Below the pieces are notes generated by a model, which was not told the origin of the DNA, did no database searches, and was given only the letters and a program-made list of their open reading frames with translations. Source: a virus. From it: 51,586 bases of DNA. Numbering within the stretch: position 1 is the first letter of the stretch; each line of letters begins with the position of its first letter. The stretch is from positions 1-51,586 of the IMG/VR virus record IMGVR_UViG_3300032242_001840. One strand, written 5' to 3'. Positions 1 through 32,535 of this stretch are shown in pieces. The position numbers and the translations under genes were made by a program.

Positions 1-159
1 AGCGGCAGGGCTGGCAGCAGCGGCAGGGGCTGGCAGCAGCGGCAGGGGCTGGCGACGAGCGGCAGGGCTGGCAGCAGCGGCAGGGGCTGGCAGCAGCGGC
101 AGGGGCTGGCGACGAGCGGCAGGGCTGGCGGCAGCGGCAGGGGCTGGCAGCAGCGGCAG
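1..159. repeat. GC-rich tandem repeat with higher-order 57-base unit
   Basis: Eight full units plus a partial one of a sequence like AGCGGCAGGGGCTGGCAGC. The unit lengths cycle 18, 19, 20 bases (1-18, 19-37, 38-57; then 58-75, 76-94, 95-114; then 115-132, 133-151), so there is a 57-base higher-order repeat. The 20-base unit ends in GACG instead of AGC. No credible gene overlaps it. The left window edge cuts the array, so its true length is unknown. Function is not shown; a replication, packaging or simple expansion role are all possible. Confidence 0.9.
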
Positions 160-162
160 AAT

Positions 163-359
163 ACCCCCGAACGTGGAAACGCGCAGTATGCAACGCAGCA
201 CACAACACAATACCCCCGAACGTGGAAACGCTGGGGGACTCCGGCCGGGTCTGGCAGCCGCTGCCGATACCCCCGAACGTGGAAACCGCGGCAGCACCCC
301 CGAACGTGGAAACGCTGGGGGACTCCGGCCGGGTCTGGCAGCCCCCGAACGTGGAAACG
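163..359 (+). repeat. Array of five start-associated elements without genes
   Basis: Copies of ACCCCCGAACGTGGAAACG lie at 163-181, 212-230, 269-287 (last base C), 296-314 and 341-359 (first base G). Copies two and four are each followed by the same 28-base GC-rich tail (231-258 and 315-342), giving an 84-base duplication. All copies face rightward. Unlike the copies further right, these are not followed by convincing coding sequence; when read through they encode the peptide TPERGN, which creates a spurious open frame from 188 to 769. They may be remnants of deleted small genes, or a GGA-rich RNA or DNA target array. Confidence 0.9.
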
Positions 360-360
360 G

Positions 361-621
361 TTATCGCCCGCGGCGGTTGCCCGCGTTCTCTATTGAGGCT
401 GCCACGATTTTTGCGACTGCCGCGGAATCGTACTGGTCAAGAATCCAGCCCCAATCGTCTCCCGGTTTCAGACCCTGCCCCATGGCATGCCGCCAGATGA
501 CCCCTGCGATATCCTCCGCGGCGGCTGCCGCTGCCGCGGGCGGCTGGCCTACCGTATGGGGCGCGGCCTGGGAGCATGCCCAGTCGAATAGCTCCGGCAA
601 ACTGCTGATGATGTGTTGCAT
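361..621 (-). CDS. Hypothetical 86-residue protein
   Basis: A leftward frame of 86 residues with an alanine run near residues 28-35 and a protein-like C-terminal half containing GDDWGWILDQYDSAA. No family is recognised. There is no clear Shine-Dalgarno sequence, but a TAGAAT hexamer ends seven bases before the ATG, so the message could be leaderless, as proposed for the nuclease gene at 12185. Against it: it stands alone, opposite in direction to the flanking start-associated elements, and the region is GC-rich, where open frames arise easily. Existence is uncertain. Confidence 0.4.
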   Translation of the reverse strand: MQHIISSLPELFDWACSQAAPHTVGQPPAAAAAAAEDIAGVIWRHAMGQGLKPGDDWGWILDQYDSAAVAKIVAASIENAGNRRGR

Positions 622-655
622 GCCCGCATTCTACCCGGCCCGACAATCGAGCGCC

Positions 656-725
656 ACCCCCGAACGTGGAAACCGACAAATTCTCACAAAACCAAATGTC
701 CACCAGACCCCCGAACGTGGAAACC
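656..725 (+). repeat. Two more start-associated elements without genes
   Basis: Copies at 656-674 and 707-725, both ACCCCCGAACGTGGAAACC, 51 bases apart and just upstream of the first promoter of the early operon. Neither is followed by a start codon at a usual distance. The stretch from 622 to 765 holds nothing else that can be supported. Confidence 0.88.
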
Positions 726-765
726 AGCGAGGAAACAGCCCAAAAATATTTTTCCAGTTAAGGTA

Positions 766-793
766 TTGACCCGCTCTAAGACGATGCTAGGAT
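766..793 (+). promoter_or_regulatory. Early operon promoter (sigma70-like)
   Basis: TTGACC (766-771), 16-base spacer, TAGGAT (788-793). It is the only good promoter-like sequence ahead of the first gene of the rightward operon (start at 836), giving a leader of roughly 35 bases that contains one start-associated element (813-830). The TAGGAT -10 resembles the TAG-N-CT form seen in other promoters of this genome. Confidence 0.7.
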
Positions 794-835
794 ATGTGTG
801 TGCGACAGAGACACCCCGAACGAGGAAACGAGAGA

Positions 836-1018
836 ATGACCCCGACCGTCACCTACCGCATGATCAAAATCCAAGACCCCCGCAGCCCTGGCTTTTTCTG
901 GTACGAGATCGAATCCCGCACCCCCGCCGGCGAAACTCACACGGTTGCCGTGTGCGACACTCGCGAGGAAGCAAAGGAGACGATTGCCGCCATGCGGGCG
1001 GCTGTTCAATGCTCTTGA
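836..1018 (+). CDS. Small early protein, 60 residues
   Basis: First gene of the rightward operon. The ATG at 836 follows the element ACCCCGAACGAGGAAACG by five bases; an upstream in-frame ATG at 794 would place the element inside the gene and is rejected. The protein begins MTPTVTYRMIKIQD, contains an aromatic patch (PGFFWYEIES) and ends in a short acidic helix (TREEAKETIAAM). No signal peptide, membrane segment or known domain. Probably a small soluble early protein of unknown role. Confidence 0.75.
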   Translation: MTPTVTYRMIKIQDPRSPGFFWYEIESRTPAGETHTVAVCDTREEAKETIAAMRAAVQCS

Positions 1019-1101
1019 TTGGCTACCCACCAAGAAATCAGAACCCGGCGCGTTGCCGGCGGCCGGATGGATCGACAGACCCCTTCTTAGGAACCCAAAC
1101 A

Positions 1102-1305
1102 ATGCCCCGCCTGGAACGAGAGCTGCTTGAAGAATGCCGCACCATTGCTGCCCACTCCGGCGCGGCGCTGGTCGATGTGCTGCGCGACTGCCACCGATTT
1201 TGGATTACCGCCGGTCGGTCGATACAGCCGCGGGGGTGGGTGGCCCGCGCCAACGCTGCCAAACGGCTCCTCGCTCGTCACAGTGAGCAGCAGCAGGCAG
1301 TCTAG
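1102..1305 (+). CDS. Small early protein, 67 residues
   Basis: Starts at ATG 1102, preceded by TAGGAAC and by a degenerate leader (GATCGACAGACCCC near 1070). A GC-rich hairpin-like sequence (GGCGCGTTGCCGGCGGCC, about 1046) separates it from the previous gene. The protein is basic and helical, with an N-terminal helix (ERELLEECRTIAAHSGAALVD) and an arginine-rich C-terminus (ARANAAKRLLARHSEQQQ). It resembles small phage proteins that bind nucleic acid or other proteins, but no family is recognised. Confidence 0.68.
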   Translation: MPRLERELLEECRTIAAHSGAALVDVLRDCHRFWITAGRSIQPRGWVARANAAKRLLARHSEQQQAV

Positions 1306-1387
1306 TCAACCGACCGACAATATGCCTGGGGCGCGTTGCCCCGGCCGCCAGTGGATCGATAGACCCCCCGCAGAAGGAAACGAGAAA

Positions 1388-1588
1388 ATGACCACCTATA
1401 AAATCGTGCGTATGTATCTGCGTGACGACCAGCGCTCCCGCACACTCCGGCGCGGCCTGACGCTGGAGGCAGCGCAGGCACACTGCCGCACCCCCGAGGC
1501 ATCGAGCAGCAGGGCGACAAGTGCCGCCGCTCGTCGCCGCACCGCGGCCCGCGGGCCTTGGTTCGATGGATATGACGTTGACCGTTGA
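1388..1588 (+). CDS. Conserved phage protein, WFDGY type, 66 residues
   Basis: Starts at ATG 1388 behind an AAGGAAACGAGAAA leader. The layout is typical of a small conserved protein found in many actinophages and other tailed phages: N-terminal YKIVRMY, then RGLTLEAAQAHC, a serine-rich SSSRATSA stretch and the C-terminal GPWFDGY. That recognition is from memory of the family pattern. Its function is unknown in all phages I know of; the pattern suggests one small folded domain. Presence in an early operon fits a role in takeover or DNA metabolism, which is inference. Confidence 0.82.
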   Translation: MTTYKIVRMYLRDDQRSRTLRRGLTLEAAQAHCRTPEASSSRATSAAARRRTAARGPWFDGYDVDR

Positions 1589-1694
1589 CCCCCCGCTCCC
1601 CCGGCCCCGGCAACCGCCGGCAGCCGGGACTGCGGGCGGCCACCGTGGCCCCCCGACCGTGAGAACCCTAAACCCCCGTAGAAGGAAACGACAA

Positions 1695-2141
1695 ATGAGC
1701 GCTATAGCCGATGCGATGGTTGAAGTGATCGAGGCCGGAGTTGTGCCGGTTTTTTGCCCCGATTATTGCCCCGACCTAGAGCAAGATGGAGAGCATGGGT
1801 TGGTGTGGGTGACGATCACCACCCGCTTTGGAGAACCGCTGCGGCTTTCCGGCCTGCTGCCGGAGGACGCGGACGACTACCTCGAATCCTGCGGCACAGA
1901 CAACGAGGTTGGGCAGTCGATGCAGATGATTCTGGATTGCGACCACATGCGCAGTTGCATGGGTGCTGACGGGCAGGACACCCCGAACGATTACGAATGC
2001 ACCCACTGCGGAAAAACCTGGAACGCCTACAACACGACCAACAACCGCTCCGGCCGCCGCAGCCCCTGCCCGTCATGCCGGGAGATGTGCCGGCCGACTG
2101 CCGCCAGCCAACAGGCATACCGGGAGAGCATGTACAGCTAG
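1695..2141 (+). CDS. Zinc-ribbon early protein, 148 residues
   Basis: ATG 1695 follows GTAGAAGGAAACGACAA. The N-terminal part is acidic (CPDYCPDLEQDGEHGLVWV). Near residues 106-111 stands CTHCGKTW and near residue 128 CPSCREMC, a treble-clef or zinc-ribbon pair. The C-terminus is short and polar. Such proteins in phage early operons often bind nucleic acid or host polymerase, but no specific partner can be named. A further element-like CCCCGAACGA occurs inside the gene at 1981 and looks like coincidence. Confidence 0.8.
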   Translation: MSAIADAMVEVIEAGVVPVFCPDYCPDLEQDGEHGLVWVTITTRFGEPLRLSGLLPEDADDYLESCGTDNEVGQSMQMILDCDHMRSCMGADGQDTPNDYECTHCGKTWNAYNTTNNRSGRRSPCPSCREMCRPTAASQQAYRESMYS

Positions 2142-2221
2142 ACCCCCTCGGCGCGTTGCCGGCGGGACGATTTTGGACGACACTGCACATGACCCCCGAA
2201 CGGGGGAACCTTAAGGGAGAG

Positions 2222-2515
2222 ATGATCATGGAACTGATTTTGACGGAATGCGGAAGCGGCTTCCCGCGCGTCGGTGAGTTGGTCGGGCGCTGGCACGACG
2301 GGGAGGCCCGCGTGTGGCTGATCACGTCGGGCGGACGGATCACCACCGGGCAGGCTGGCAGCGGCCAGCCGAACACCTGCGAGGCCGAGGGCGAGGAATT
2401 GAGTCAGCAGCAAATTGAGGCAGCAGCAGCCCGCGGGCAGATCGATCTGGACGATCCGCAGGGATTCCTGGGGCTGCGATCAGTGTCGGTCAAACCAGCA
2501 GGCGACGACGCCTGA
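2222..2515 (+). CDS. Hypothetical early protein, 97 residues
   Basis: Starts at ATG 2222 (a second in-frame ATG at 2228) with AAGGGAGAG as Shine-Dalgarno sequence. The start-associated element here (2192-2210) is changed to a near-perfect CCCCC-GAAC-GGGGG hairpin and lies further upstream, with the ribosome site supplied separately. The protein has an N-terminal beta-rich part (VGELVGRWHDGEARVWLITSGG) and a C-terminal acidic helix (EELSQQQIEAAAARGQIDLDD). Function unknown. Confidence 0.72.
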   Translation: MIMELILTECGSGFPRVGELVGRWHDGEARVWLITSGGRITTGQAGSGQPNTCEAEGEELSQQQIEAAAARGQIDLDDPQGFLGLRSVSVKPAGDDA

Positions 2516-2612
2516 CGACCCCCCGCTCCCCCCGGCCGGCGAAACGCTGGTCGGGGACTGCGGGCGGCCGACCGGCAGCCTGGAACGATTACCCCCGAAC
2601 GAGGAAACGAGC

Positions 2613-2993
2613 ATGAACACGACCATAGAACCGAATGCCCGATCTGCTGGTGAACTGCGGCGCGACCTGGGCGAGGCTCTCGCGCTGCTGCGTGAGATTG
2701 TCGACATGGAACGGGTGATGATGGACAAAAACGACAACGCTTCTCAGGAGGAGTTTCAGAAGGCCGCCGATGCGTTCTACGCAAAAATCGACACCGCGGC
2801 AGAGTTCATTGACCTCGTTGCCGAACCGATCACGCTCAATGTCACCGGCGGCAAACTGACTCTGATCGATTTTGACCTGCGCTACTGCTGGTTTCTGGAT
2901 GACACCGACACCGGCGTGTCGGGCCTGACAGTCGATGAGGCTCGAACGGCAGCCTACGCCGCGTGGCCGGAGGCGCACGACCTCAACCTGTAA
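2613..2993 (+). CDS. Hypothetical early protein, 126 residues
   Basis: Starts at ATG 2613 behind the consensus element GAACGAGGAAACGAGC. The first 60 residues are predicted helical (AGELRRDLGEALALLREIVDMERVMMDK), followed by a mixed domain with LIDFDLRYCWFLDDTDTG and a C-terminal helix (VDEARTAAYAAWPEA). No known domain is recognised. The gap to the next gene (2994-3095) carries a degenerate element and a GC hairpin built on GGTCGGGCCG. Confidence 0.75.
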   Translation: MNTTIEPNARSAGELRRDLGEALALLREIVDMERVMMDKNDNASQEEFQKAADAFYAKIDTAAEFIDLVAEPITLNVTGGKLTLIDFDLRYCWFLDDTDTGVSGLTVDEARTAAYAAWPEAHDLNL

Positions 2994-3095
2994 CGCGACC
3001 CGACCGCACCCCCCGACCGTGGCAACACGCGGGGGAGACGGTCGGGCCGTGTGGCCCGACGATGGACGATTACCCCCGTAGAAGGAAACGAGAAC

Positions 3096-3647
3096 ATGAC
3101 CGCAATCAGCATTTCGATCTGCCCCACCGACCTGGAATTCCGCAACGGCGATATGTACGACCAGCAGTCGCTGCTGGAGGCTATTCGGGATTTTGCGACC
3201 GCTCACCACCCCGACGCCACGATCACCTGCCTTCAGATCGGCCATCGGCAGGGCGATTCTTGGGCGACGGTCGATGGGGACGACGAGGCCGGGCAGGCGC
3301 TGATGGAGGATTTCTGGGCGGCCCGCGGGAGCGATGCCGATCTGTTTTCCGCCACGCCCACAGTGTCGCTTGGGGATTACGCCAACGCCCGCGGCTGCGT
3401 TGTGGTGTTCGTGGCTGGTGTCGGCTGCCCGGCCGGCGAGTATTTTGCCGCTGGCGATCCCAGCGACAGCGTTGACAGTCTGCTTGAAAACCTCGCGATC
3501 CAAGGTGGCACTGTCGATTCCAGCGGCGACTGGCACTGGGACGGCAGCGGCAATCCGACCGATTACCGCGGCAACACGATTTACAAAATCCACGCCTATA
3601 TCGACGCCAAGAAATGGGCCAGCCTCACTGAAGACTCGGCAGTTTGA
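3096..3647 (+). CDS. Hypothetical early protein, 183 residues
   Basis: Starts at ATG 3096 behind GTAGAAGGAAACGAGAAC. An acidic soluble protein with many W, D and G residues. The N-terminal half has LLEAIRDFATAHHPDA and RQGDSWATVDGDDEAGQALMEDFW; the C-terminal half has GDWHWDGSGNPTDYRG and ends in an alpha-beta segment (YKIHAYIDAKKWASL). No family is recognised. The low pI and compact size would suit a DNA-mimic or anti-host protein, but this is a guess. Confidence 0.75.
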   Translation: MTAISISICPTDLEFRNGDMYDQQSLLEAIRDFATAHHPDATITCLQIGHRQGDSWATVDGDDEAGQALMEDFWAARGSDADLFSATPTVSLGDYANARGCVVVFVAGVGCPAGEYFAAGDPSDSVDSLLENLAIQGGTVDSSGDWHWDGSGNPTDYRGNTIYKIHAYIDAKKWASLTEDSAV

Positions 3648-3723
3648 CCTGACCCCCGAACGACGAAACGGATTCACTTCACACCCTGCCGCCCCCGAGC
3701 GGCGAAACGAGAGGAGCCTGACC

Positions 3724-4437
3724 ATGGAACAGCAGACGAAAACAGACTGGGAACAGGTGGGGCGCAGCCTCGGCCCACACGTCGGCCGATTGACCCTGCG
3801 AACCACGCTTGAAGCGGCTGGCCTGGTGGTCAACACCCCCGACTACCAGCGGGTGCTGGCGGCCATTCAGCGGGGGCAGAATGCGAAGCGGCGTGAGCTT
3901 GAGGCGGCGCAGGCAGCCCGCGAGGAGGCCCGCCTGGCACCCTATCGCGAGGAGGCGCGTGCCAATGTCCTCGCATGGGGATGCTGGGAGGAGGACGGCC
4001 CAGAGGGCAACCTAGAGGCGTTCCTGGAGGATTGCCGGGAGGAGGCTAGCCGCATGGCCGACGAGGCCGAGCAGGTTGCCGCAGAGGCAGAGGAGACTGC
4101 CCAGCGGGAGGCTGCCGAACTGCTGCACTACCAGCGGTCGGTGGCCGCCATCAACGCCGCTTGCGGGGCGGCCGCCGCGGCATGCCTGGAGGCAGGCTGG
4201 CGGCTGGAGCCTCGGCGGGGCGGCAGTGAATTGTCCTGCTATTTCCACGCCTGCCGACTGGACGAAAACGGCGACGAAGACCTGGTGCTGACGGTGCGAA
4301 TAAGCGATCACTACGCACCCAATGGCAGCGGCTGGAACGAGTCTGCGCAGACGCAGCACGACCGGCCCGACGTAAACATCGTGATGAGCAGCAGCTATTC
4401 GTTCACCTTGGAGCGACTGCTGGAGCGACTTGACTGA
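3724..4437 (+). CDS. Coiled-coil early protein, 237 residues
   Basis: Starts at ATG 3724 with GAGAGGAG eight bases before it; two start-associated elements precede (3652-3670, 3691-3709), both with GCGAAACG in place of GAGGAAACG. Residues about 45-150 are charged and alanine-rich (AIQRGQNAKRRELEAAQAAREEARLAP; ASRMADEAEQVAAEAEETA), a likely long coiled coil. The C-terminal 80 residues form a separate mixed domain (LSCYFHACRLDENGDEDLVLTVRISDHY). No known family. Confidence 0.75.
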   Translation: MEQQTKTDWEQVGRSLGPHVGRLTLRTTLEAAGLVVNTPDYQRVLAAIQRGQNAKRRELEAAQAAREEARLAPYREEARANVLAWGCWEEDGPEGNLEAFLEDCREEASRMADEAEQVAAEAEETAQREAAELLHYQRSVAAINAACGAAAAACLEAGWRLEPRRGGSELSCYFHACRLDENGDEDLVLTVRISDHYAPNGSGWNESAQTQHDRPDVNIVMSSSYSFTLERLLERLD

Positions 4438-4491
4438 CCCCCGACCGTGGAAACGAGCGATCCCCTAACCCCCGAACGAGGAAACGCGACG

Positions 4492-4707
4492 ATGGCAATT
4501 CAAATTCTGCTTGGTGATCGTGAAGGCGCAGCGATTGGAGTCTATGTCGATTCCTGCTGCGGACGATGCGGCTACGGGTCAGACCGCGGAGACGAATCTC
4601 CGGTGGCCCTGGCTTCAGCGAAGGATGTTCTCAATGGCGAGGTGCTTTGCCTGCGGTGCTTTGCTGAGGAGATCGGCGACAGGCTGAGTGCAACCCACAA
4701 ACTCTGA
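4492..4707 (+). CDS. Small zinc-finger early protein, 71 residues
   Basis: ATG 4492 follows the second of two elements (4437-4455 and 4468-4486). The protein has CCGRCGYG near residue 22 and CLRCF near residue 53, so one four-cysteine zinc site. It resembles small DksA- or zinc-ribbon-like phage proteins only in a general way. Function unknown. Confidence 0.75.
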   Translation: MAIQILLGDREGAAIGVYVDSCCGRCGYGSDRGDESPVALASAKDVLNGEVLCLRCFAEEIGDRLSATHKL

Positions 4708-4715
4708 CTCAAGCC

Positions 4716-4746
4716 TTGACACATAAACTGTCGATCCGTAGCCTAC
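4716..4746 (+). promoter_or_regulatory. Internal early promoter with GTAGCCTAC element
   Basis: TTGACA (4716-4721), 17-base spacer, TAGCCT (4739-4744). The -10 is part of GTAGCCTAC (4738-4746), an almost palindromic sequence that recurs at several leftward promoters in this genome. It would drive the genes from 4808 onward. Confidence 0.72.
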
Positions 4747-4807
4747 ACGCCTGGGGGTCATGCCGCCGACCCCGAGCGTAGAAACCCCGTGCGGCGAAAC
4801 GAGAACG

Positions 4808-5035
4808 ATGATGGCAAAGAAAAAGGCGGCTCCAGCCAAATTTGGCTATTACTACGAAACGACTCCCTACGGAGTCGAGCAGAAGGGAAAGAAGTTTGCT
4901 GTAGTGCAGTCATGGTGGGGCAAGACGATTTCCATTCACGGCACAAAGGAACTGGCCGAAGAGGCTTGCGTGGAGGAGGCGAGAACGCGCGGATGCCTCC
5001 AGCGAATCAGATACAAAATCACACCCCGAACGTAG
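4808..5035 (+). CDS. Small basic early protein, 75 residues
   Basis: Start at ATG 4808 (or the adjacent ATG 4811), after two overlapping elements (4769-4786, 4785-4801). Basic N-terminus (MMAKKKAAPAKF), an aromatic stretch (YYYETTPYGVEQKGKKF) and a C-terminal arginine-rich part. The stop codon TAG lies inside the start-associated element of the next gene. Probably a nucleic-acid binding protein by charge; no family recognised. Confidence 0.72.
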   Translation: MMAKKKAAPAKFGYYYETTPYGVEQKGKKFAVVQSWWGKTISIHGTKELAEEACVEEARTRGCLQRIRYKITPRT

Positions 5036-5051
5036 AAACGAGAGATCCGAA

Positions 5052-5243
5052 GTGAACTTGAACATTCGACTGACAGCCATGGAAGCCGAGGCTCTTCGGC
5101 GAGCGTTGGCAGGGTTGGTGGCAGATGAGCGTCAGCGTTTTTGGGGAAGGACTCGAGCCAGCAGGATCGAGCTTGCCGCCGTGAGCCTCTACGAAAAAAT
5201 CTTTGATCGACACCCGTCCGACTCCAAGGAACCCCGACCATGA
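5052..5243 (+). CDS. Small early protein, 63 residues (GTG start)
   Basis: Starts at GTG 5052 after the element ACCCCGAACGTAGAAACG (5023-5040) and GAGAGATCCGAA. The sequence, with NIRLTAMEAEALRRALAGLVADERQRF, is helical and may dimerise. It overlaps the next gene by four bases (5240-5243). No known family. Confidence 0.65.
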   Translation: MNLNIRLTAMEAEALRRALAGLVADERQRFWGRTRASRIELAAVSLYEKIFDRHPSDSKEPRP

Positions 5244-5416
5244 CAAACCGAATTTCCATGTATGAGGCTGGCTGGTTGACGTTTTTGGTCAAGGCCAATT
5301 TGACTACCGAGCAACACGCCCGCGAAGCGATGAAGCGGGCGGCAGTGTCGATTGCAGAGCGGTTGAATCATCGCAGGATCGATAGACTTCCCACCAACAG
5401 AAAGGGTCAAGAATGA
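5240..5416 (+). CDS. Small early protein, 58 residues
   Basis: A short gene that begins at ATG 5240, overlapping the previous stop, and ends TGA at 5414-5416. It encodes MTNRISMYEAGWLTFLVK at the N-terminus, then a charged helix (TEQHAREAMKRAAVSIAERL) and a basic tail (NHRRIDRLPTNRKGQE). It is coupled on both sides: four-base overlap upstream, ATGA overlap with the next gene. Its 3' end carries GGATCGATAGAC, similar to the box before other early genes. Function unknown. Confidence 0.65.
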   Translation: MTNRISMYEAGWLTFLVKANLTTEQHAREAMKRAAVSIAERLNHRRIDRLPTNRKGQE

Positions 5417-5685
5417 CCACCACCCCTGTTTTCGTCGCCTACGTCAGCAAGTCCGAACGTGGCATCCGGCCGGTCATCCGCGAGTTGCGGCGGGGCGTCA
5501 TCGTCACCGATGGCATCGAGCATGTCTTCTATCTGGATTCTCTCGGCAACGTCGCCAGCGTTTTCGTGTCGTTCGAGCAGGTGTTCACCACCCGACGCGA
5601 GGCTTGCCGGTTCCTGGCCGCCGAGGTGCGGCGGGAAATCGAATTGCTCAGGGTCGAGGCCGACCAGTTGGAGTTCGCGATATGA
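5413..5685 (+). CDS. Hypothetical early protein, 90 residues
   Basis: ATG 5413 overlaps the previous stop (ATGA) and has AAAGGGTCAAG upstream. The protein has a beta-rich N-terminal part (VFVAYVSKSERGIRPVIRELRRGVIV), a middle GIEHVFYLDSLGNV and a C-terminal amphipathic helix (REACRFLAAEVRREIELLRVEADQLEF). No family recognised. It is followed by an ATGA overlap with the next frame. Confidence 0.72.
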   Translation: MTTTPVFVAYVSKSERGIRPVIRELRRGVIVTDGIEHVFYLDSLGNVASVFVSFEQVFTTRREACRFLAAEVRREIELLRVEADQLEFAI

Positions 5686-5813
5686 AAAAAATCTGGGACG
5701 AATGGATTCGCGCCTTGGTTCTGATTCGTTTTGGGCAGGAACTCGGCCAGTCAGGACGACTAGCCGAGACGATTGCGGGCGTCTTAGACATGATCCTGAA
5801 GCTAGGGTCGTAG
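5682..5813 (+). CDS. Very small early protein, 43 residues
   Basis: ATG 5682 overlaps the previous stop (ATGA). The 43 residues (MKKIWDEWIRALVLIRFGQ...) form one or two amphipathic helices. Support rests on the overlap and protein-like composition only. Function unknown. Confidence 0.5.
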   Translation: MKKIWDEWIRALVLIRFGQELGQSGRLAETIAGVLDMILKLGS

Positions 5814-5818
5814 CGGCG

Positions 5819-5847
5819 TTGCCCGCCGCCGCTGTGACCCGTACAAT
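5819..5847 (+). promoter_or_regulatory. Promoter for the small HTH gene
   Basis: TTGCCC (5819-5824), 17-base spacer, TACAAT (5842-5847). The -35 lies in a small GC inverted repeat (AGCGGCG ... CGCCGCT) that may also act as a barrier for the upstream operon. A start-associated element follows at 5863-5881, ending two bases before the ATG at 5884. Confidence 0.62.
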
Positions 5848-5883
5848 GACAGACCTACCACCACCCCCGTATATGGGAACGAC

Positions 5884-6216
5884 ATGTTCACTGATTACCT
5901 GACGATTGACCAAGCCTCCAAAGCGGTCGGATGCACCCGCAGGACGCTGTATCGCATCATCGAGAAGTTTGCCCCTGGCGAGGTCGTCACGCCGGCATTC
6001 GGGCGGCAACTGATTCACATCTCGAAGCTGCCAGCGCTGCGCGAAAACTACTTCCCGTTTGGCAGCGAGCGCCGGTCGGCGGCGGCCAAGATTTGGGGGA
6101 AGGGAGGCGGGACGCAGAAAAAGATCAACCTGGAGGGTGCAGGGTCTTCGCGGAGTGGCACCGCAGGCAAAGCAGTTGCAGGCCCGAAAGGCCGGCGGCG
6201 GTCGCCGGCTCGTTGA
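5884..6216 (+). CDS. HTH protein, excisionase or MerR-like, 110 residues
   Basis: ATG 5884 lies close behind the element ACCCCCGTATATGGGAACG. Residues 5-30 (YLTIDQASKAVGCTRRTLYRIIEKF) match the helix-turn-helix of excisionase and MerR-type DNA-binding domains; the following segment (VVTPAFGRQLIHISKLPAL) would be the wing. The C-terminal third is low-complexity and basic (GTAGKAVAGPKGRRRSPAR). Likely a DNA-binding regulator or excisionase, although it is 21 kb from the integrase. The last 92 bases overlap the convergent HNH gene. Confidence 0.75.
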   Translation: MFTDYLTIDQASKAVGCTRRTLYRIIEKFAPGEVVTPAFGRQLIHISKLPALRENYFPFGSERRSAAAKIWGKGGGTQKKINLEGAGSSRSGTAGKAVAGPKGRRRSPAR

Positions 6217-6427
6217 GAGCCTTCTCCTCGATATGGTCGATCTGCGCGTCTTTCGGCCCGTTGCAGATTCGACCGCATTCCTGGCACACCCCCTCGTCCC
6301 TGGCGATCACGGCCAGCCGCAGTCGCTGCCACGCGGCAGTACAGTAGCCGCGGGCGGCGGCGGTCGGCCGGTGGCCGTCTCGCCGGCCGACGCGAGGCGG
6401 CCTATACGGCTGGGGGCGTCTGGGCAT
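6125..6427 (-). CDS. Small HNH endonuclease, 100 residues
   Basis: The N-terminal part is basic (MPRRPQPYRPPRVGRRDG). The HNH zinc core is visible: CQECGR near residues 48-52, the catalytic pair D64-H65 in DAQIDHIEEK, and CLRCHSAK near residue 87. Start at ATG 6427 with GCAGGGTGG upstream. Such free-standing HNH proteins in phages are homing nucleases or partners of terminase for DNA packaging. It is the last gene of the leftward operon and overlaps the convergent HTH gene by 92 bases. Confidence 0.82.
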   Translation of the reverse strand: MPRRPQPYRPPRVGRRDGHRPTAAARGYCTAAWQRLRLAVIARDEGVCQECGRICNGPKDAQIDHIEEKALNEPATAAGLSGLQLLCLRCHSAKTLHPPG

Positions 6428-6752
6428 CGCGGCACCACCCTGCGATAAGAACCTCGTTGGCGCGGCGCTTCTCGACCCAGCGCACAATCGCGTTGACGAC
6501 CAACTGCACCAAAATCGACATGATAAACGTGGCGATGATCGATCCGTACTGATCCCGTACCCGTCGATTCATTCGAGCCTTCAACACCTCGGCCCGGCGG
6601 GACGGCGGGGCGTCGGCAGGCCATTCTTCGACCGCCATCTCGACCAGACGGTCGCGCAGCCCCCCGTGCATGGAAACGCGAGCGGGGGACGATTCGGCCA
6701 CGAAGTTCTTCAGCGTTTGATAACGACTGGCGGGCATGTCCCGGTCGGGCAT
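6402..6752 (-). CDS. Small membrane protein, 116 residues
   Basis: ATG 6752 with AAGGGAG seven bases upstream. The N-terminal 70 residues are charged (VEEWPADAPPSRRAEVLKARMNRRVRDQ); a transmembrane segment follows (IIATFIMSILVQLVVNAIV, about residues 72-90). It lies next to a lipoprotein and a protease, so a role in lysis such as holin or spanin is possible. Its first 43 bases overlap the end of the upstream gene. The antisense strand carries a copy of the early start-associated element at 6661-6678. Confidence 0.75.
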   Translation of the reverse strand: MPDRDMPASRYQTLKNFVAESSPARVSMHGGLRDRLVEMAVEEWPADAPPSRRAEVLKARMNRRVRDQYGSIIATFIMSILVQLVVNAIVRWVEKRRANEVLIAGWCRDAQTPPAV

Positions 6753-7021
6753 GGTACGGCTCCCTTCTTTTTGCATCCGCAGGACTCTGGGCAGCGGCAG
6801 TTCACTAGAGCGATGCCGTCCCCAGATTTCTCCTTCCCCGTACCGTTGCACTTGCAGCCCTCCACGCAGCCCTTTTCGGGCGTCACGGGCTTGGGCGGCG
6901 CACCGGCCGTCAGCAGGGCGTAATGGCCGGAAACGGCCACCCACGGGGCCAGATCGAGGTGCTGGGCCGCCGGCGTACACCCGAGCGACGAAACGACAGC
7001 GAGAGCGACGATCCAGCGCAT
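6710..7021 (-). CDS. Cysteine-rich lipoprotein, 103 residues
   Basis: The start at ATG 7021 gives a lipoprotein signal: MRWIVALAVVSSLGC, lipobox SLGC with lipidated Cys15. The mature part has a cysteine-rich stretch (CVEGCKCNGTG, NCRCPESCGCKKKG, CPTGTC) of nine or more cysteines. It overlaps the protease gene by one base (TGATG). Small phage lipoproteins next to lysis genes can be outer spanins, but the cysteine-rich part is unusual for that role. Could also be a superinfection-exclusion lipoprotein. Confidence 0.78.
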   Translation of the reverse strand: MRWIVALAVVSSLGCTPAAQHLDLAPWVAVSGHYALLTAGAPPKPVTPEKGCVEGCKCNGTGKEKSGDGIALVNCRCPESCGCKKKGAVPCPTGTCPPVVIKR

Positions 7022-9462: not shown

Positions 9463-9726
9463 TCATTCTACCCGATGGGCAGCGTCGATGCGGCGGTCAC
9501 GCTCCACCTGCGTCCACTGCGACTTTATCGCCGTTTTCGCCAGCATGATCTGCTCCGGCGTCGGAATGTAAACCTCGACCTGCCGGGGGTAGGGGAGCTT
9601 CATCTGCGCCGCCGCGGCGGCAAGCTGCGCTTCCGAAAACCCCATCTCGTCGCAGATTTCGTCTTCAAGCGAGTCGCTCTTCCACAGTCGCTGTAGCTTC
9701 TGCTTCTGGCGGGTCGATAAGTCCAT
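9463..9726 (-). CDS. HTH protein with WTQxERDRR tail, 87 residues
   Basis: ATG 9726 shares TGATG with the previous stop and has AGGGAGG upstream. Residues about 8-45 (RQKQKLQRLWKSDSLEDEICDEMGFSEAQLAAAAAQM) look like a GcrA- or resolvase-type helix-turn-helix. The C-terminal IPTPEQIMLAKTAIKSQWTQVERDRR belongs to a motif shared with the proteins at 12217, 12583 and 17965. Likely DNA-binding. Confidence 0.72.
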   Translation of the reverse strand: MDLSTRQKQKLQRLWKSDSLEDEICDEMGFSEAQLAAAAAQMKLPYPRQVEVYIPTPEQIMLAKTAIKSQWTQVERDRRIDAAHRVE

Positions 9727-10616
9727 CAACCCTCCCTAATCAGTGCCGCATAACGGCTACCAGGGTTCAGATACATCCGCACCCACGGGTATCCGCCGTC
9801 TGTCTTGTCGGCGATCGACTTGTGCAGGCAGACATGCTCGCAGTCCTCGCCGGAATACTTGCCCAACAACCAGTAGCGGGTCTTGTAGACGGCCAGCCCG
9901 CCAAAACAAGAGTTCATCGGCTGCACGGGTGCGGCGACCGGCGGCAAGAACATCGAGAACCACCCCAGGCCGATTTCCTCGCGACGATCCTCCCACCAGC
10001 AGACAGGCCGGGCGGCCCACGAATCGTAGTGAGCGATCTGCGCCCTTTCTGGCTTGCCAGCCTCCTGCGTCAGGTAGAGCGAGTAGCTCCCCATGCCGTA
10101 GGCCGAAGGGGTCGCGTCCAACTGAGCGATCGAGTTGAAAATGCCATCGACGCTGAAGCCCCCCTCTGGGTCAACGTCCAGCACGATCACATAGTCGGCA
10201 TGTGGGGCGTTTTCCCTGACCCATTCCATGCACTTCTGCCGGTACTCTGCGAGCGCCTCAGTTCGCGGGCCGGCGAACTCCCCCGGCAGGTGCGGCCGGT
10301 TGAGCGTGGCATGCTCAACCGTCATGTAGCCGTTGGCCGCGGCGTGAGCGTCAAGCATCTCGGCGGTGCCGTCGTCCGAATCGTTCTCAAAAACGTACCA
10401 GTGCGGCTTCGCCGGCCCGAGGCAAGACAGCGACCGGAACTGCTCCACAAGCGCCAGCGTGTTGGGCAACATGCGGGCGGCGTTCCTGGCGATCGACACG
10501 ATGACGATGCTGCTGCACAAAGCAGTGTTCATCCCCTCGGCCACCGCATCGCGGTAGTCCTCAATGTACTTGTCGTCGATATTCCAGAAGTCTTCGGGGC
10601 AGATTGTCGGCTTCAT
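9726..10616 (-). CDS. Glycosyltransferase, GT-A fold, 296 residues
   Basis: ATG 10616 overlaps the previous stop (ATGA) with GAGGTG upstream. N-terminal nucleotide-binding strand (SIVIVSIARNAARMLPNTLAL) and YVFENDSDDGTAEML, then the metal-binding DYVIVLDVDPEGGF near residue 150. The C-terminal part has aromatic acceptor-site segments (SWAARPVCWWEDRR; CFGGLAVYKTRYW). The substrate cannot be told. It forms a coupled set with the next two genes, so together they may modify virion or host glycans. Confidence 0.8.
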   Translation of the reverse strand: MKPTICPEDFWNIDDKYIEDYRDAVAEGMNTALCSSIVIVSIARNAARMLPNTLALVEQFRSLSCLGPAKPHWYVFENDSDDGTAEMLDAHAAANGYMTVEHATLNRPHLPGEFAGPRTEALAEYRQKCMEWVRENAPHADYVIVLDVDPEGGFSVDGIFNSIAQLDATPSAYGMGSYSLYLTQEAGKPERAQIAHYDSWAARPVCWWEDRREEIGLGWFSMFLPPVAAPVQPMNSCFGGLAVYKTRYWLLGKYSGEDCEHVCLHKSIADKTDGGYPWVRMYLNPGSRYAALIREG

Positions 10617-11287
10617 ATGAAACACCTCTTTTTGAGTTCGTCGGCACGATTGGGCCACTGCGTGGCGTGGAAAAAGTAGGATGCGTCTGCGACTTGCTTT
10701 GGCGTTCCAGCCCCAGGCCACCCCCTCTTGTCGTTGAGGTGTGGGTTCCACACAAGATGCAGGTCGCGGTTGCAATGCACCGTGTTGGCATACAGGTCGA
10801 TGAACGCTGCCTGCTCCCACCAGTGGTCTGCTCGAGGGGCGTCAGTGTGGTTCCAGATACGCTCAAGCATGTCTGATACTTTGCAGCCAGCGGCATCCCC
10901 CTTGACCAGCCAGACGCCGCAATTCGGCACGGCCCCGTCTGCGGTCTGGTGGGTCACGCAGTTAAACGGCCGGCGGCCAGCCGCATGCGACAAAATGTCG
11001 ATGTACGGGTCAACGATCCCCACGTCGGCATCAAGCCACAGGGCTACGTCGTAGCCAGTCGGTGTGCTGTATTCCCGGCGAATCTTGTAAACGATCGCAT
11101 CCTGAATCGCCTTGACCTTGAACCAGCTTGCATGTCGGCCGTCGTCAACCTTCTTGAACGTCTCGCGAGTCGGACACCACAGGTCGTAGCCATGCAACCT
11201 GGCATACGCCTCCTTACCCGGCAGCGTGATCCGGTGAAGCTCTTCGTTCTCCTCCCCCCACCCGTAGGTGATCAGCAGTTTGTTCAT
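10613..11287 (-). CDS. Glycosyltransferase, GT34/GMA12-like, 224 residues
   Basis: ATG 11287 overlaps the previous stop (ATGA). Typical order for the galactosyl transferase GMA12/MNN10 type: AYARLHGYDLW, then SWFKVKAIQDAI, the metal-binding DVALWLDADVGI near residue 87, PNCGVWLVKGD and the WWEQAAFIDLY segment. The family transfers hexoses to glycans. In a phage it may glycosylate a structural protein or host surface polymer. Donor and acceptor are unknown. Confidence 0.82.
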   Translation of the reverse strand: MNKLLITYGWGEENEELHRITLPGKEAYARLHGYDLWCPTRETFKKVDDGRHASWFKVKAIQDAIVYKIRREYSTPTGYDVALWLDADVGIVDPYIDILSHAAGRRPFNCVTHQTADGAVPNCGVWLVKGDAAGCKVSDMLERIWNHTDAPRADHWWEQAAFIDLYANTVHCNRDLHLVWNPHLNDKRGWPGAGTPKQVADASYFFHATQWPNRADELKKRCFI

Positions 11288-12191: not shown

Positions 12192-12220
12192 ATTATGACG
12201 GCAAGTAGCCTACGGATCAA
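12192..12220 (-). promoter_or_regulatory. Leftward promoter with GTAGGCTAC in spacer
   Basis: Read leftward: TTGATC (12220-12215), 17-base spacer, CATAAT (12197-12192). The spacer contains GTAGGCTAC right after the -35. The -10 ends six bases before the ATG at 12185, so transcription should start at or within the start codon. It would drive the nuclease, methyltransferase and glycosyltransferase genes. Confidence 0.8.
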
Positions 12221-12573
12221 GAGTAGGCGTCGGGGCCAAACAAATCTTTGCTGGTCACCAGGGCGACCTCCTGCCGGCTGTCTGCGGTGCGGCGGTTCCG
12301 CTCCACGTCAGCACTCCACTTTGCCCTGCATATAGCCGCCCGCTCCTCAATCTGGGCCTCGGTGGGGTCATCCACGCACCAGCCGTTGTACTGCTCGTCT
12401 ACCTGCCTGTCGGCCCGCTTCGGCAGGGCATATATACCCTTGAGCCGCCAGAGCGTAGGGACGCTGCACCCAAGCTCACGGGCGATATCCTCCGGCCTCT
12501 TCGTCTCGTCGTTCCACAGCCGGAACAACAGCGGCACCGACACGCTCTCCTTAAATCGCAGAATCCTGCCCAA
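12217..12573 (-). CDS. HTH protein with DPTEAQIEERAA motif, 118 residues
   Basis: TTG start at 12573, supported by AGGAGGA five bases upstream. An N-terminal region (PLLFRLWNDETKRPEDIARELGCSVPTLWRLKGIY) is a helix-turn-helix of the resolvase type. The C-terminal DPTEAQIEERAAICRAKWSADVERNRR belongs to a family of four related tails in this genome. Likely DNA-binding. Its 3' end overlaps the -35 of the nuclease promoter. Confidence 0.74.
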   Translation of the reverse strand: MGRILRFKESVSVPLLFRLWNDETKRPEDIARELGCSVPTLWRLKGIYALPKRADRQVDEQYNGWCVDDPTEAQIEERAAICRAKWSADVERNRRTADSRQEVALVTSKDLFGPDAYS

Positions 12574-12582
12574 GATATCCTC

Positions 12583-12891
12583 CTAGAAGTCGTAGCATGC
12601 ATGCACTGGCTCTCGAGCAAACGCCCGATCGCTGTCCCAATCACGCCGCAGGGCGGCGGCCCTCTCCTCAATCTCCTGCCTCGTCGGGTCTGGGATCGCC
12701 ACCCCAGCGTTGGCCCGCCGGTAATAGGGCGAGTTGAGCCTGGGCGGCAGCCCCTCCCTCTTGGCAATATCGGACAGCGAATTCGGGTGGATGCCAGCCT
12801 CCTCTGCAATGTCGGCGTTGGTCAGATCGTCCCTGCCCCACAGGGCTTTAATTGCCGCGACAATCTCGCGTTTGCGTCCCTTCTGAGTCAC
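12583..12891 (-). CDS. HTH protein with DPTRQEIEERAA motif, 102 residues
   Basis: GTG 12891 overlaps the previous stop (GTGA) and has AGGAGATG upstream. A helix-turn-helix is visible in IVAAIKALWGRDDLTNADIAEEAGIHPNSLSDIAKREGL. The tail DPTRQEIEERAAALRRDWDSDRAFARE aligns with the neighbour downstream (12217), so the two are paralogues. Likely DNA-binding regulators or adaptors. Confidence 0.76.
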   Translation of the reverse strand: MTQKGRKREIVAAIKALWGRDDLTNADIAEEAGIHPNSLSDIAKREGLPPRLNSPYYRRANAGVAIPDPTRQEIEERAAALRRDWDSDRAFAREPVHACYDF

Positions 12892-14373: not shown

Positions 14374-14418
14374 GCGTTGCACTTTCCTCGTTGCTACCTA
14401 TTTCCGACGCCGGAAAAG

Positions 14419-14492
14419 GGCTGGGTGCCGGAATCGAACCAACGTCTGCGGGGTTATCTTTCCCGCCGCTCTGCCAACTGAGCTAACCCAGC
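14419..14492 (-). tRNA. Aberrant tRNA, anticodon uncertain (possibly Ile-GAT)
   Basis: Read leftward from 14492: acceptor GCTGGGT / ACCCAGC, TA, D arm GCTC-AGTTGGCA-GAGC, T arm GTTGG-TTCGATT-CCGGC with the usual TTCGA loop. The anticodon stem GCGGG / CCCGC closes a nine-base loop AAAGATAAC instead of seven, and the usual T33 is missing; the central triplet is GAT. The variable loop is four bases. CCA is not encoded. A seven-base loop is possible only with an A-C mismatch at the stem top. It may be a degenerate or non-decoding tRNA. Confidence 0.75.
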
Positions 14493-27144: not shown

Positions 27145-27195
27145 CTACCTGCCAGCATGGCGCATTCTCCTACTGGCGGGGGGAGAAAACACACC

Positions 27196-28053
27196 ATGCT
27201 TTGCGTCGAACTGCTGCGGGACTTCTACGCCCCTTTGAAGGGGCTGTCCCCAAGGACTGTCGATCTCTACGGCTATAGCATTGCTGCGATGTCGGCGTTT
27301 GTTCGCAGGCCGGCGACCGTAGACGACTTTGACGAACTGACGGTCGCCAGATTTCTGGCGGCGCGTCGGGCCACGCACAGCGTTGCCACGGTGGCGAAGG
27401 ATCGTGCGCAGATACGCGCCTTGTGGGAGTTTGCCGCCCGTCGGGGTTTCTGCAAAACCTTTCCGACGATCGCTCTGGTGAAAATCCCAGAGAGGGTGCC
27501 GGAGTCTTGGCTCACCTGCGACGTGGAGCGTCTGCTTGAGTCCTGCGCTCAAGAGCAGACCTACATTTGCAGCATCCCATCAGCCCTGTGGTGGCGGGCC
27601 TGCATCCTCGTCTGCTACCAGTCGGCCGAACGCATCAACGCGGTTCTGTCTCTGAAGTGGCAGGACTGCGTCGGATGCTCGCTCCTCTTTCGAGCGGAGG
27701 GGCGGAAGGGGCAGACTCGCGACATCCTCCGCGAGGTGACGGTCGAATGCGCCGACGCGATGCTGGCGATCCGCAACGGCCGCCGCGGCGACCAGCACGT
27801 CTTCCCTTGGGATCGAGGCCGCACCTACCTCTGGAAACGGATGGGCATCATTCTTGAGCGGGCGGGCCTGCCGGCCACCAGGCGGGACAAGTTTCATCGG
27901 CTGCGCAGAACATGTGCATCCTATTTCGCCGCGGCGGGGGGCGATGCCCAGCGGCTGCTGGATCACGCCGATCCAGCCACGACACGCAAATACGTTGACC
28001 CCAGGATCGCCAGAACGCCGCAGGCTTGCGACCTCATTCCGAAGGTCGGCTAG
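27196..28053 (+). CDS. int: Tyrosine recombinase (integrase), 285 residues
   Basis: ATG 27196 with GGGGGAG ten bases upstream. N-terminal core-binding domain (residues 1-90) with FYAPLKGLSPRTVDLYGYSI; catalytic domain with R146 (AERINAVLSL), a lysine in EGRKGQTR (K171), H234-R-L-R237 (box II), H257 (LDHADPATTRKY) and the nucleophile Y266. All expected catalytic residues are present. The protein lacks an arm-binding N-terminal domain like that of lambda Int. It should catalyse integration into the host chromosome; no attP could be identified. Rightward and convergent with the HNH gene, overlapping it by 20 bases. Confidence 0.92.
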   Translation: MLCVELLRDFYAPLKGLSPRTVDLYGYSIAAMSAFVRRPATVDDFDELTVARFLAARRATHSVATVAKDRAQIRALWEFAARRGFCKTFPTIALVKIPERVPESWLTCDVERLLESCAQEQTYICSIPSALWWRACILVCYQSAERINAVLSLKWQDCVGCSLLFRAEGRKGQTRDILREVTVECADAMLAIRNGRRGDQHVFPWDRGRTYLWKRMGIILERAGLPATRRDKFHRLRRTCASYFAAAGGDAQRLLDHADPATTRKYVDPRIARTPQACDLIPKVG

Positions 28054-30576: not shown

Positions 30577-32535
30577 TCAATATGTCCCGCCGTCAATGTC
30601 GCTGCTTGTGGAAAGGGCATCTGTAATTCCATATCCAGAGAGCGTCGTTGGGTTTGTGCCTGCTGTGACTCGCCCTTTGGCGTCTACGGTTACGCTTTTG
30701 TATGTGCCTGCTGTTGCCCCGCTTGCGGAAAGCGTTGTCGCAAACGATCCTGTGCCTGAGCCTGTCACATCTCCCGTAAGGGTGACAGTCTGATCTCCAG
30801 TATTGGTTCCGCTGCTGCTGCCGCTGAACGTACCAGATTGCGTTGCAAGAGAGCCAAGTCCGATCACGTCTAGTGCTGCGATCGTCACCGCTCCGGTGCG
30901 GCCCGCAACGGATTGCACGGGTGCCGCTGCCGACGCTGCTGCGTTGAATCCGCTCACATCTCCAGAGGCGATCACGACCGCCCCGGTGCGGCCGGCAACA
31001 GACTGCACGGGTGCCGCAGCCGACGCTGCTGCGTTGAATCCGCTCACATCTCCAGAGGCGATTACTACCGCTCCGGTGCGACCAGCCACGCTGGTGACGG
31101 GCGGCGCGGCATATCCGCTCACGTCGGAGGTGCTGATCACGACCGCGCCAGTGCGTCCAGCAACAGACTGAACCGGGGCTGCTGCCGAGGCTGCTGCCGT
31201 CAGTCCGCTCACGTCGGCGGCGGCGATTACGACTGCGCCGGTGCGGCCCGCAACGCTCGTCACGGGCGGCGCGGTGTATCCGCTGACATCGCTTGTGCTG
31301 ATCACGACCGCCCCTGTCCTGCCCGCCACGCTCGTCACGGCTGGAGCCACATACCCGCTGACATCGCCTGTGCTGATCACGACTGCTCCGGTGCGGCCGG
31401 CCACCGACTGGACGGGGGCTGCGGCCGACGCTGCTGCTGTCAGTCCGCTCACGTCTGCTGCGGCGATCACGACTGCGCCTGTCCTGCCGGCCACGCTCGT
31501 CACGGGCGGCGCTGTGTATCCGCTGACATCGCTTGTGCTAATCGTCACCGCTCCGGTGCGACCAGCTACCGACTGGACGGGTGCCGCTGCCGATGCGGCT
31601 GCTGTCAGTCCGCTTACGTCCGCGGCGGCGATCACCACTGCACCTGTGCGGCCCGCCACGCTCGTCACGGGAGGCGCTGTGTATCCGCTGACATCGCCAG
31701 TGCTGATTACGACTGCACCCGTTCTGCCAGCCACGCTGGTGACGGCTGGCGCGACGTATCCGCTCACATCGGAGGTGCTGATCACGACCGCGCCGGTGCG
31801 CCCTGCCACCGACTGCACGGGTGCCGCTGCCGACGCTGCTGCTGTCAGACCGCTCACGTCCGCTGCGGCGATCACGACCGCCCCTGTCCTGCCGGCCACG
31901 CTCGTCACGGGCGGCGCGGTGTATCCGCTTACGTCGGAGGTGCTGATCACGACCGCTCCGGTGCGGCCGGCCACCGACTGAACGGGGGCCGCTGCGGCAA
32001 CGCCGCTCACGTCTGAGGCTGCAAGCACGACCGCCCCTGTCCTGCCAGCCACGCTGGTGACGGCTGGCGCGACGTATCCGCTCACGTCGGAGGTGCTGAT
32101 CACGACCGCTCCGGTGCGGCCTGCCACCGACTGCACGGGTGCCGCTGCCGACGCTGCTGCCGTCAGTCCGGTCACGTCGCCAGAAGCGATCACGACCGCC
32201 CCTGTCCGGCCAGCCACGCTCGTCACGGGCGGTGCGACATATCCGCTCACATCGGAGGTGCTGATCACGACCGCGCCGGTGCGGCCGGCAACCGAACTGA
32301 CCTGCCCCTGCGAACTCAAAACGCCACCGGCCGTCACGGACAGACCGCTGCCGACGATAATGACGCCCAATGCGGTCGTTGTGGCCGGGGATGTGGTTCC
32401 TGCCGGCCCTGCGGCCCCCTGCGGGCCGATGCCGCCGCTGGCGGTCACGCTGACGGCCGTGCCGGGGGCGGTGACGGTCACGTTCTGGTCGTTGACCGTG
32501 ACGTTGACGGGGTTGGTGGGGACGGTGATGTTCAC
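30577..32535 (-). CDS. Repetitive tail fibre protein, 652 residues
   Basis: Eighteen repeats of the form VxSVAGRTGAVVIxxxDVSG (about residues 79-560), alternating with YxAPP and LTAAASAAAP links. A GPQGAAGPAG collagen-like piece stands near residue 38. The C-terminal 85 residues are a known fibre module (GTNTGDQTVTLTGDVTGSGTG ... VTVDAKGRVTAGT). The protein should be a long, thin, trimeric fibre. Repeat number is likely to vary between strains. Confidence 0.9.
   Translation of the reverse strand: MNITVPTNPVNVTVNDQNVTVTAPGTAVSVTASGGIGPQGAAGPAGTTSPATTTALGVIIVGSGLSVTAGGVLSSQGQVSSVAGRTGAVVISTSDVSGYVAPPVTSVAGRTGAVVIASGDVTGLTAAASAAAPVQSVAGRTGAVVISTSDVSGYVAPAVTSVAGRTGAVVLAASDVSGVAAAAPVQSVAGRTGAVVISTSDVSGYTAPPVTSVAGRTGAVVIAAADVSGLTAAASAAAPVQSVAGRTGAVVISTSDVSGYVAPAVTSVAGRTGAVVISTGDVSGYTAPPVTSVAGRTGAVVIAAADVSGLTAAASAAAPVQSVAGRTGAVTISTSDVSGYTAPPVTSVAGRTGAVVIAAADVSGLTAAASAAAPVQSVAGRTGAVVISTGDVSGYVAPAVTSVAGRTGAVVISTSDVSGYTAPPVTSVAGRTGAVVIAAADVSGLTAAASAAAPVQSVAGRTGAVVISTSDVSGYAAPPVTSVAGRTGAVVIASGDVSGFNAAASAAAPVQSVAGRTGAVVIASGDVSGFNAAASAAAPVQSVAGRTGAVTIAALDVIGLGSLATQSGTFSGSSSGTNTGDQTVTLTGDVTGSGTGSFATTLSASGATAGTYKSVTVDAKGRVTAGTNPTTLSGYGITDALSTSSDIDGGTY
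30850..32301 (-). repeat. Eighteen-copy coding repeat in the fibre gene
   Basis: Units of about 75-90 bases encode SVAGRTGAV-VISTSDVSG. Many units are near-identical at DNA level, so unequal crossing-over can add or remove copies. The other strand and other frames are open over long stretches because of the GC-rich repeat, which explains several false frames. Confidence 0.88.

Follow-up and report, generated by a model that had tools for sequence, protein, structure and literature searches.

A one-way 19-base element at the early promoter and in the gene spacers of one early operon in a family of uncultured viruses

Results

A 19-base element is repeated in one direction around the early operon

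The IMG/VR virus record IMGVR_UViG_3300032242_001840 was analysed over its entire length of 51,586 bases (the window), with the focus on a 19-base element, ACCCCCGAACG-N-GGAAACG, that recurs close to its left end. Searching the window with the consensus ACCCCCGAACGNGGAAACG returned 18 matches with at most three mismatches, all on the plus strand and all within 163–6995, against 0.06 expected by chance (100 dinucleotide shuffles). A profile trained on these 18 matches found 26 copies scoring above 14 bits at 163–6995, every one on the plus strand, and no match above that score on the minus strand. No stretch of comparable element density was found in the leftward 7–51 kb of the window, and cellular genomes contained single, chance-like motif matches only. 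The existence of the repeat, its location, its rightward direction and its departure from chance, all put forward in an earlier note on this DNA, were thus borne out, as was the description of the element as non-palindromic; an equal density elsewhere, which that note had named as the finding that would speak against it, was not seen. The restriction to the early region and the rightward direction also hold, yet two copies (6660 and 6977) sit in leftward genes. The element is asymmetric, with a core of 16–19 nt (CCCCGAnCGnGGAAAC) containing two conserved blocks, CCCCG at positions 3–7 and GAAAC at positions 14–18, whose 11-bp separation would correspond to about one helical turn. An Rfam search of the early region returned no family, the only Rfam match being a tRNA elsewhere in the record, and a search of literature text for the motif string gave a single, unrelated match.

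The copies are grouped around a sigma-70-type promoter-like sequence on the plus strand (TTGACC-N16-TAGGAT, 766–793; the early promoter), the position and form of which are conserved in relatives (family form TTGAC-N16-TAnnnT). Seven copies lie upstream of it. Five of these (163–181, 212–230, 269–287, 296–314 and 341–359) are all of the GTGGAAAC form, have neither a Shine-Dalgarno sequence nor a credible start behind them, and are separated from the promoter by a leftward open reading frame (ORF; 361–621) with a homologue in one relative. The other two (656–674 and 707–725) are 51 nt apart and flank a conserved block close to the promoter on its upstream side, AATTCTCAC..ACCAA.TGTCCACC; the same 51-nt pair around the block recurs in relatives L012, L042 and L055, and a block AATTCTCAC..ACCAACTGTCCACC (within 656–766) is conserved between two copies upstream of the promoter in many relatives.

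Downstream of the promoter the copies occupy intergenic spacers and are often paired, one by the previous stop codon and one by the next start. The first start-linked copy, CGAACGAGGAAACG (812–830), contains the Shine-Dalgarno sequence GAGGA before the ATG at 836, and a second (1364–1382) contains AAGGA before the ATG at 1388. These are followed by a pair 23 nt apart (1649–1667 and 1672–1690; ATG 1695) and by a copy of the hairpin form, CCCCCGAACGGGGG (2192–2210), with a separate Shine-Dalgarno sequence (GGGAG) before an ATG at 2222 or 2228. Two pairs have a spacing of 63 nt: 2528–2546 and 2591–2609, the first within a covarying hairpin after the stop codon at 2515 and the second carrying GAGGA before the ATG at 2613, and 3009–3027 and 3072–3090, the first again within a covarying hairpin, after the stop codon at 2993, and the second carrying AAGGA before the ATG at 3096. 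Further pairs are found at 3652–3670 and 3691–3709 (39 nt apart, with a separate GAGGAG and ATG 3724), at 4437–4455 and 4468–4486 (31 nt apart, the first touching the stop codon of the preceding gene and the second carrying GAGGA before ATG 4492) and, overlapping each other, at 4768–4786 and 4783–4801 (15 nt apart; ATG 4808 or 4811). Single copies precede the GTG at 5052 (5022–5040) and the ATG at 5884 (5863–5881), where a gene coding for a winged-helix protein begins. The early operon comprises about 15 ORFs, four of which (1102, 5240, 5413 and 5682) have no clear copy.

The Shine-Dalgarno sequence belongs to one version of the element and not to its core

According to the earlier note, most copies stand directly before start codons and the element supplies the ribosome site of the early genes. 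In the window, 11 of the 26 copies are start-linked, that is, placed 2–14 nt before the ORF-based start of a gene encoding 40 aa or more; three of them (2192, 3691 and 5022), which have the widest gaps, fit this description more loosely. Of the remaining copies, seven precede the early promoter (163–725), six lie elsewhere in intergenic spacers and two inside leftward genes. Across 24 related regions, 132 of 465 copies (28%) end 0–12 nt before an ATG ORF, compared with 10.8% of random positions. The association with starts is therefore significant, but it is a trait of a minority of copies, and the claim for most of them was not upheld. Similarly, AGGA lies at Shine-Dalgarno distance in six copies of the window (812, 1364, 1672, 2591, 3072 and 4468), for which the proposed role as ribosome site stands, whereas for most copies it does not; downstream of 2192 and 3691 the Shine-Dalgarno sequence is separate from the copy.

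The placement of GAGGA or AAGGA described in that note thus applies to a start-linked subset, whereas start-free copies read GTGGA. GAGGA was counted 53 times among start-linked copies; among those without a start within 30 nt it was counted 3 times, and GTGGA 87 times. When 184 start-linked and 465 other copies were compared family-wide, CCCCG and GAAAC were about equally conserved in both, and the classes differed mainly at positions 12–13, with A12 (GAGGA) in most start-linked copies and T12 (GTGGA) in the others. The Shine-Dalgarno sequence is thus a variant of the element and not its core, a pattern expected if the site came first and a Shine-Dalgarno sequence was fitted in where a start followed. 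Since copies without a start keep both blocks and lack the Shine-Dalgarno sequence, translation cannot be the primary function of the element. A further difference was found between genomes: at position 9 each genome prefers its own base, A, C or G (z = 7.9), as expected of sites that track a trans-acting factor, although shared ancestry or drift could produce the same preference.

The element is kept in related contigs while the early genes change

The element occurs one-way in about 35 related uncultured IMG/VR contigs, with 10–35 copies each and nearly all on one strand; in a whole-record recount of copies and strand the reversed-pattern control gave 0–2. These relatives, which are metagenomic and in some cases partial, have replication and structural genes in common with the window. 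The early promoter could be read in 16 genomes, counting the window, and each of them has three to eight copies ahead of that promoter. The early genes themselves are poorly conserved and the intervening element is kept, 98 downstream gene families being represented among 165 copy groups.

Neighbouring copies are an odd number of bases apart

Inspection of the spacings revealed a rule that had not been predicted beforehand: where neighbours are at most 70 nt apart, their start-to-start spacings are odd (among them 15, 21, 23, 25, 29, 31, 39 and 51). All 11 spacings of this kind within 163–4801 of the window are odd (49, 57, 27, 45, 51, 23, 63, 63, 39, 31 and 15). With copies grouped by the protein encoded downstream (98 families) and every family-spacing combination counted once, 125 odd and 5 even spacings were obtained (binomial p about 4e-31, which presumes independent entries and is only approximately valid). 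More robust is the count within families: 23 gene families show at least 32 changes of spacing, all of them even, so that none alters parity. One of the even spacings stems from the divergent relative G002/L011, and contigs retrieved after the rule had been noticed display the same odd pattern. Parity is strictest downstream of the promoter (64 odd to 2 even) and weaker upstream of it (42:16), and it is absent at distances of 400–800 nt; neither the distance from copy to ATG nor that from hairpin to copy (42:37) is constrained in this way.

Several causes were considered and rejected. The spacings listed above span many helical angles, which rules out helical phasing, and the rule is seen modulo 2, residues modulo 3 not giving it, as reading frame would require. 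An RNA stem between paired copies would be expected to covary, and covariation is absent. For a dinucleotide (A-N)n spacer, such as an Hfq-type RNA site, the A phase is weak in short spacers and absent from long ones, which is insufficient. A profile artefact is ruled out by a profile-free, regular-expression definition of copies (242 odd, 34 even) and by the loss of parity at 400–800 nt, and shared ancestry by the absence of any parity switch among the changes within gene families. Selection may act on spacing parity itself, with the gap between two 19-mers required to have an even number of bases but otherwise free in length and sequence, as might be imposed by a reader factor whose register on the early transcript, or on its DNA, is two bases; we regard this as a tentative and rather doubtful proposal. 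To our knowledge, no phage operon has a 'rule of two' for its regulatory sites. If the rule is true, any mechanism has to satisfy parity as a sharp quantitative requirement, and no ready explanation accounts for it.

Some copies form part of a covarying hairpin

In many spacers the copy right behind the stop codon is the 5' part of a stem-loop composed of an outer stem, a 3 × 3 symmetric internal loop and an inner stem (CCCCCG/CGGGGG), capped by a small apical stem that carries GAAA or GCAA. Across 23 distinct sequences, pairing was found in 90.5% of cells, and 18 double-sided changes were counted compared with 6.1 in shuffles (0 of 500) and 1–6 in slid controls; the sequences are related and were picked by inner stem and folding energy, and the covariation support therefore rests on the outer stem. 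Two examples in the window, at 2528–2580 and 3009–3055, lie behind stop codons and match no Rfam family. Other spacers contain hairpins with a GCGTT loop between two copies, and positions 14–18 of the element (G-N-A-A-C) follow a pattern like that of a GNRA loop. The covarying stem-loop is a possible processing site.

A putative regulator of the early operon and the proteins that might bind the element

With our confidence evenly balanced, we favour the interpretation that the element is a dispersed, asymmetric recognition site for a putative phage-encoded regulator of one early operon, in the manner of a stoperator. It is supported by the association of one-way copies with a single operon across about 35 contigs and by the copies found upstream of the promoter in every genome with a readable one. 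Such a regulator would recognise the asymmetric core, in DNA rather than RNA, and would control both the single early promoter and elongation through the operon from sites ahead of the promoter, within the leader and between the genes, each oriented with the travel of RNA polymerase. When bound, these sites might hold the operon silent during lysogeny, or switch it off at a later stage, through blocked initiation and hindered elongation. At start-proximal copies, A in place of T at position 12 would convert GTGGA to GAGGA and let the site double as a Shine-Dalgarno sequence, and occupancy of these copies could additionally gate translation. Among the roles suggested by the earlier note (translation, processing or silencing of the early operon as one regulon), silencing fits best, the one-way repeat being regulon-like and restricted to the early operon.

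Two proteins of the operon are conserved in nearly all relatives. The last gene (5884–6216, plus strand) encodes a 110-aa protein, predicted to be a MerR/excisionase-like winged helix-turn-helix protein, with weak helix-turn-helix matches and an AlphaFold model (mean pLDDT 71) of winged-helix pattern; the best Foldseek ranks for this model included MerR-type proteins, RacA, BldC, RdfS and Tn916 Xis, none with an E-value below 0.001. By its predicted fold, this protein is a candidate binder of the sites. BldC-type proteins bind direct repeats head to tail (PMC5859096), and binding of that type would suit one-way repeats. The second protein (58 aa, 5240–5416, plus strand) has a near-invariant start, NR(I/V)(T/S)PYEAGWL-xLV, and no Pfam or PHROGs match. 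Outside the operon, two small proteins with weak helix-turn-helix matches are encoded on the minus strand (12217–12573 and 12583–12891) and are present in three to four relatives; judged by sequence, they are possibly an immunity repressor or a Cro-like pair.

Several observations weigh against a regulator acting on DNA, or against the winged-helix protein in that role. The odd-spacing rule is not predicted by such a model and, being strictest in the transcribed part, points towards RNA, and some copies lie within a covarying RNA hairpin. Co-evolution of the motif with the winged-helix protein was rejected: motif divergence correlated with divergence of this protein (Mantel r 0.32) no better than with that of two other phage proteins (0.41 and 0.37), which therefore does not single it out as the binder. 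Its structural matches are weak (no E-value below 0.001, mean pLDDT 71), and the two further weak helix-turn-helix genes offer other candidates.

It is chiefly the parity rule and the hairpins that keep the alternatives with a role in translation or RNA processing serious, and neither alternative is mutually exclusive with stoperator-like control. The better surviving of the two holds that the element is a start-associated mRNA element, read by the ribosome or by a phage RNA-binding protein, which sets or shuts off the translation of the early genes jointly, a role that has been proposed for the start-associated sequences of cluster K phages. The excess of copies close to starts, the near-confinement of GAGGA to these copies, the nearly absolute odd spacing in the transcribed region only and the GNRA-loop-like positions 14–18 are all in its favour, but 72% of copies are not start-linked and still keep both blocks, and the upstream copies, five of which lie beyond the leftward ORF in the window, cannot serve translation; we consider it unlikely. 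Somewhat less likely still is an RNA-level transcription or processing element, in which copies and hairpins would be cut or bound in nascent early mRNA, by RNase III-like processing or antitermination. It would account for copies that form the 5' arm of a stem-loop just behind the stop codon, with their 18 compensatory cells, for the window hairpins at 2528 and 3009 and for the GCGTT-loop hairpins between copies; however, the majority of copies have no such hairpin, paired copies do not covary with each other, copies are present upstream of the promoter and no Rfam family was matched. That the element is a recombination or cassette boundary for the exchange of unrelated small early genes, and not a control site, would agree with the poor conservation of these genes beside a retained element but leaves unexplained the upstream cluster, the strict orientation with transcription, the Shine-Dalgarno class and the preserved spacing parity, and is very improbable.

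Comparison with known dispersed sites

The stoperators and operators of cluster A mycobacteriophages (L5, Bxb1, TipsytheTRex) are short, asymmetric, transcription-facing sites, 20–30 per genome, at the early promoter and in short intergenic gaps of temperate phages, and their consensus varies slightly between related genomes (PMC9283540, PMC6550527). The element resembles them in the number of short asymmetric sites (26 in the window), in orientation with transcription, here and in relatives, and in its positions at the early promoter, in the leader and in intergenic gaps. It differs in sequence, the 16–19 nt of CCCCGAnCGnGGAAAC being unrelated to the 13-bp stoperator consensus, and in distribution, since cluster A sites are genome-wide whereas the sites described here belong to one early operon, with no comparable density beyond about 7 kb. 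Unlike stoperators, they also often form pairs or tandem arrays with odd spacing, and one site class doubles as a Shine-Dalgarno sequence. Cluster A sites are bound by the immunity repressor and block elongation; the candidates for such a repressor here are the helix-turn-helix genes.

The SAS/ESAS elements of cluster K mycobacteriophages (start-associated sequences) are asymmetric repeats that precede genes; they have a Shine-Dalgarno-like core and are conserved beyond what rRNA pairing would account for. SAS, GGGATAGGAGCCC, occurs in 11–19 copies, nearly all at starts, and a 17-bp inverted repeat lies upstream of a subset (PMC3203893). The earlier note had likened the layout to that of cluster K, with a different sequence, and this is supported for the layout and for the subset placed as ribosome sites: a Shine-Dalgarno sequence within the repeat was seen in the start-linked class only, and a second element lies upstream of a subset. 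In contrast to SAS, only 28% of copies are within 12 nt of an ATG ORF, a copy cluster lies upstream of the promoter and a further direct copy takes the place of the inverted repeat as second element.

BldC occupies short arrays of one-way direct repeats in head-to-tail fashion, with 9 bp per protomer (PMC5859096, PMC11963761). The predicted MerR-like winged helix of the small protein at the end of the operon recalls BldC and the excisionases (Xis, Cox, RdfS) through a weak structural match, but the sites are 15–65 nt apart within spacers and spread over 6 kb, unlike BldC repeats.

The element departs from stoperators in sequence and in genome-wide spread, and from SAS in sequence and in the share of copies at starts; we therefore assign it to neither group and regard it as a new form of the dispersed and oriented control sites of phages. 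Stoperator-like dispersed control has been described from actinobacterial phages (PMC9283540, PMC6550527), and the same layout is found here in an unrelated virus family, in which a binding-site-like class and a Shine-Dalgarno class are told apart mainly by one base. These two classes of one element offer a direct route to separating DNA-level from translation-level models.

Genome context of the virus family

The window encodes a tyrosine integrase (27157–28053, plus strand; a rightward gene without the element), a Prim-Pol primase, helicases and a major head protein, and with such genes, the integrase foremost, the family looks temperate. The left 24 kb of the window had no DNA match in cultured phage records, nor did two family-wide proteins have a match in cultured phages; capsid and helicase matched cultured phages at only about 25% identity. 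In a search for the host, the integrase was not found in the three cellular genomes bearing single chance motif matches.

A tandem repeat of 57/19 bp occupies the left end of the window (1–159). In some contigs the copy cluster is interior (in G026, for example, near 20 kb, and in G033 near 22 kb), and the left end of the window is therefore probably an assembly break at this repeat rather than an end of the genome. In several relatives another tandem array occupies this position beside the copy cluster, where contigs tend to break.

Glycosyltransferase-like proteins are encoded on the minus strand at 9726–10820 and 10613–11287, the first being conserved in 14 of 14 relatives compared. The sole tRNA gene of the record, tRNA-Ile (GAT), lies at 14418–14492 on the minus strand, and the gene for a minor tail protein contains long imperfect repeats (30886–32295) with periods of 75, 90, 165 and 405 bp.

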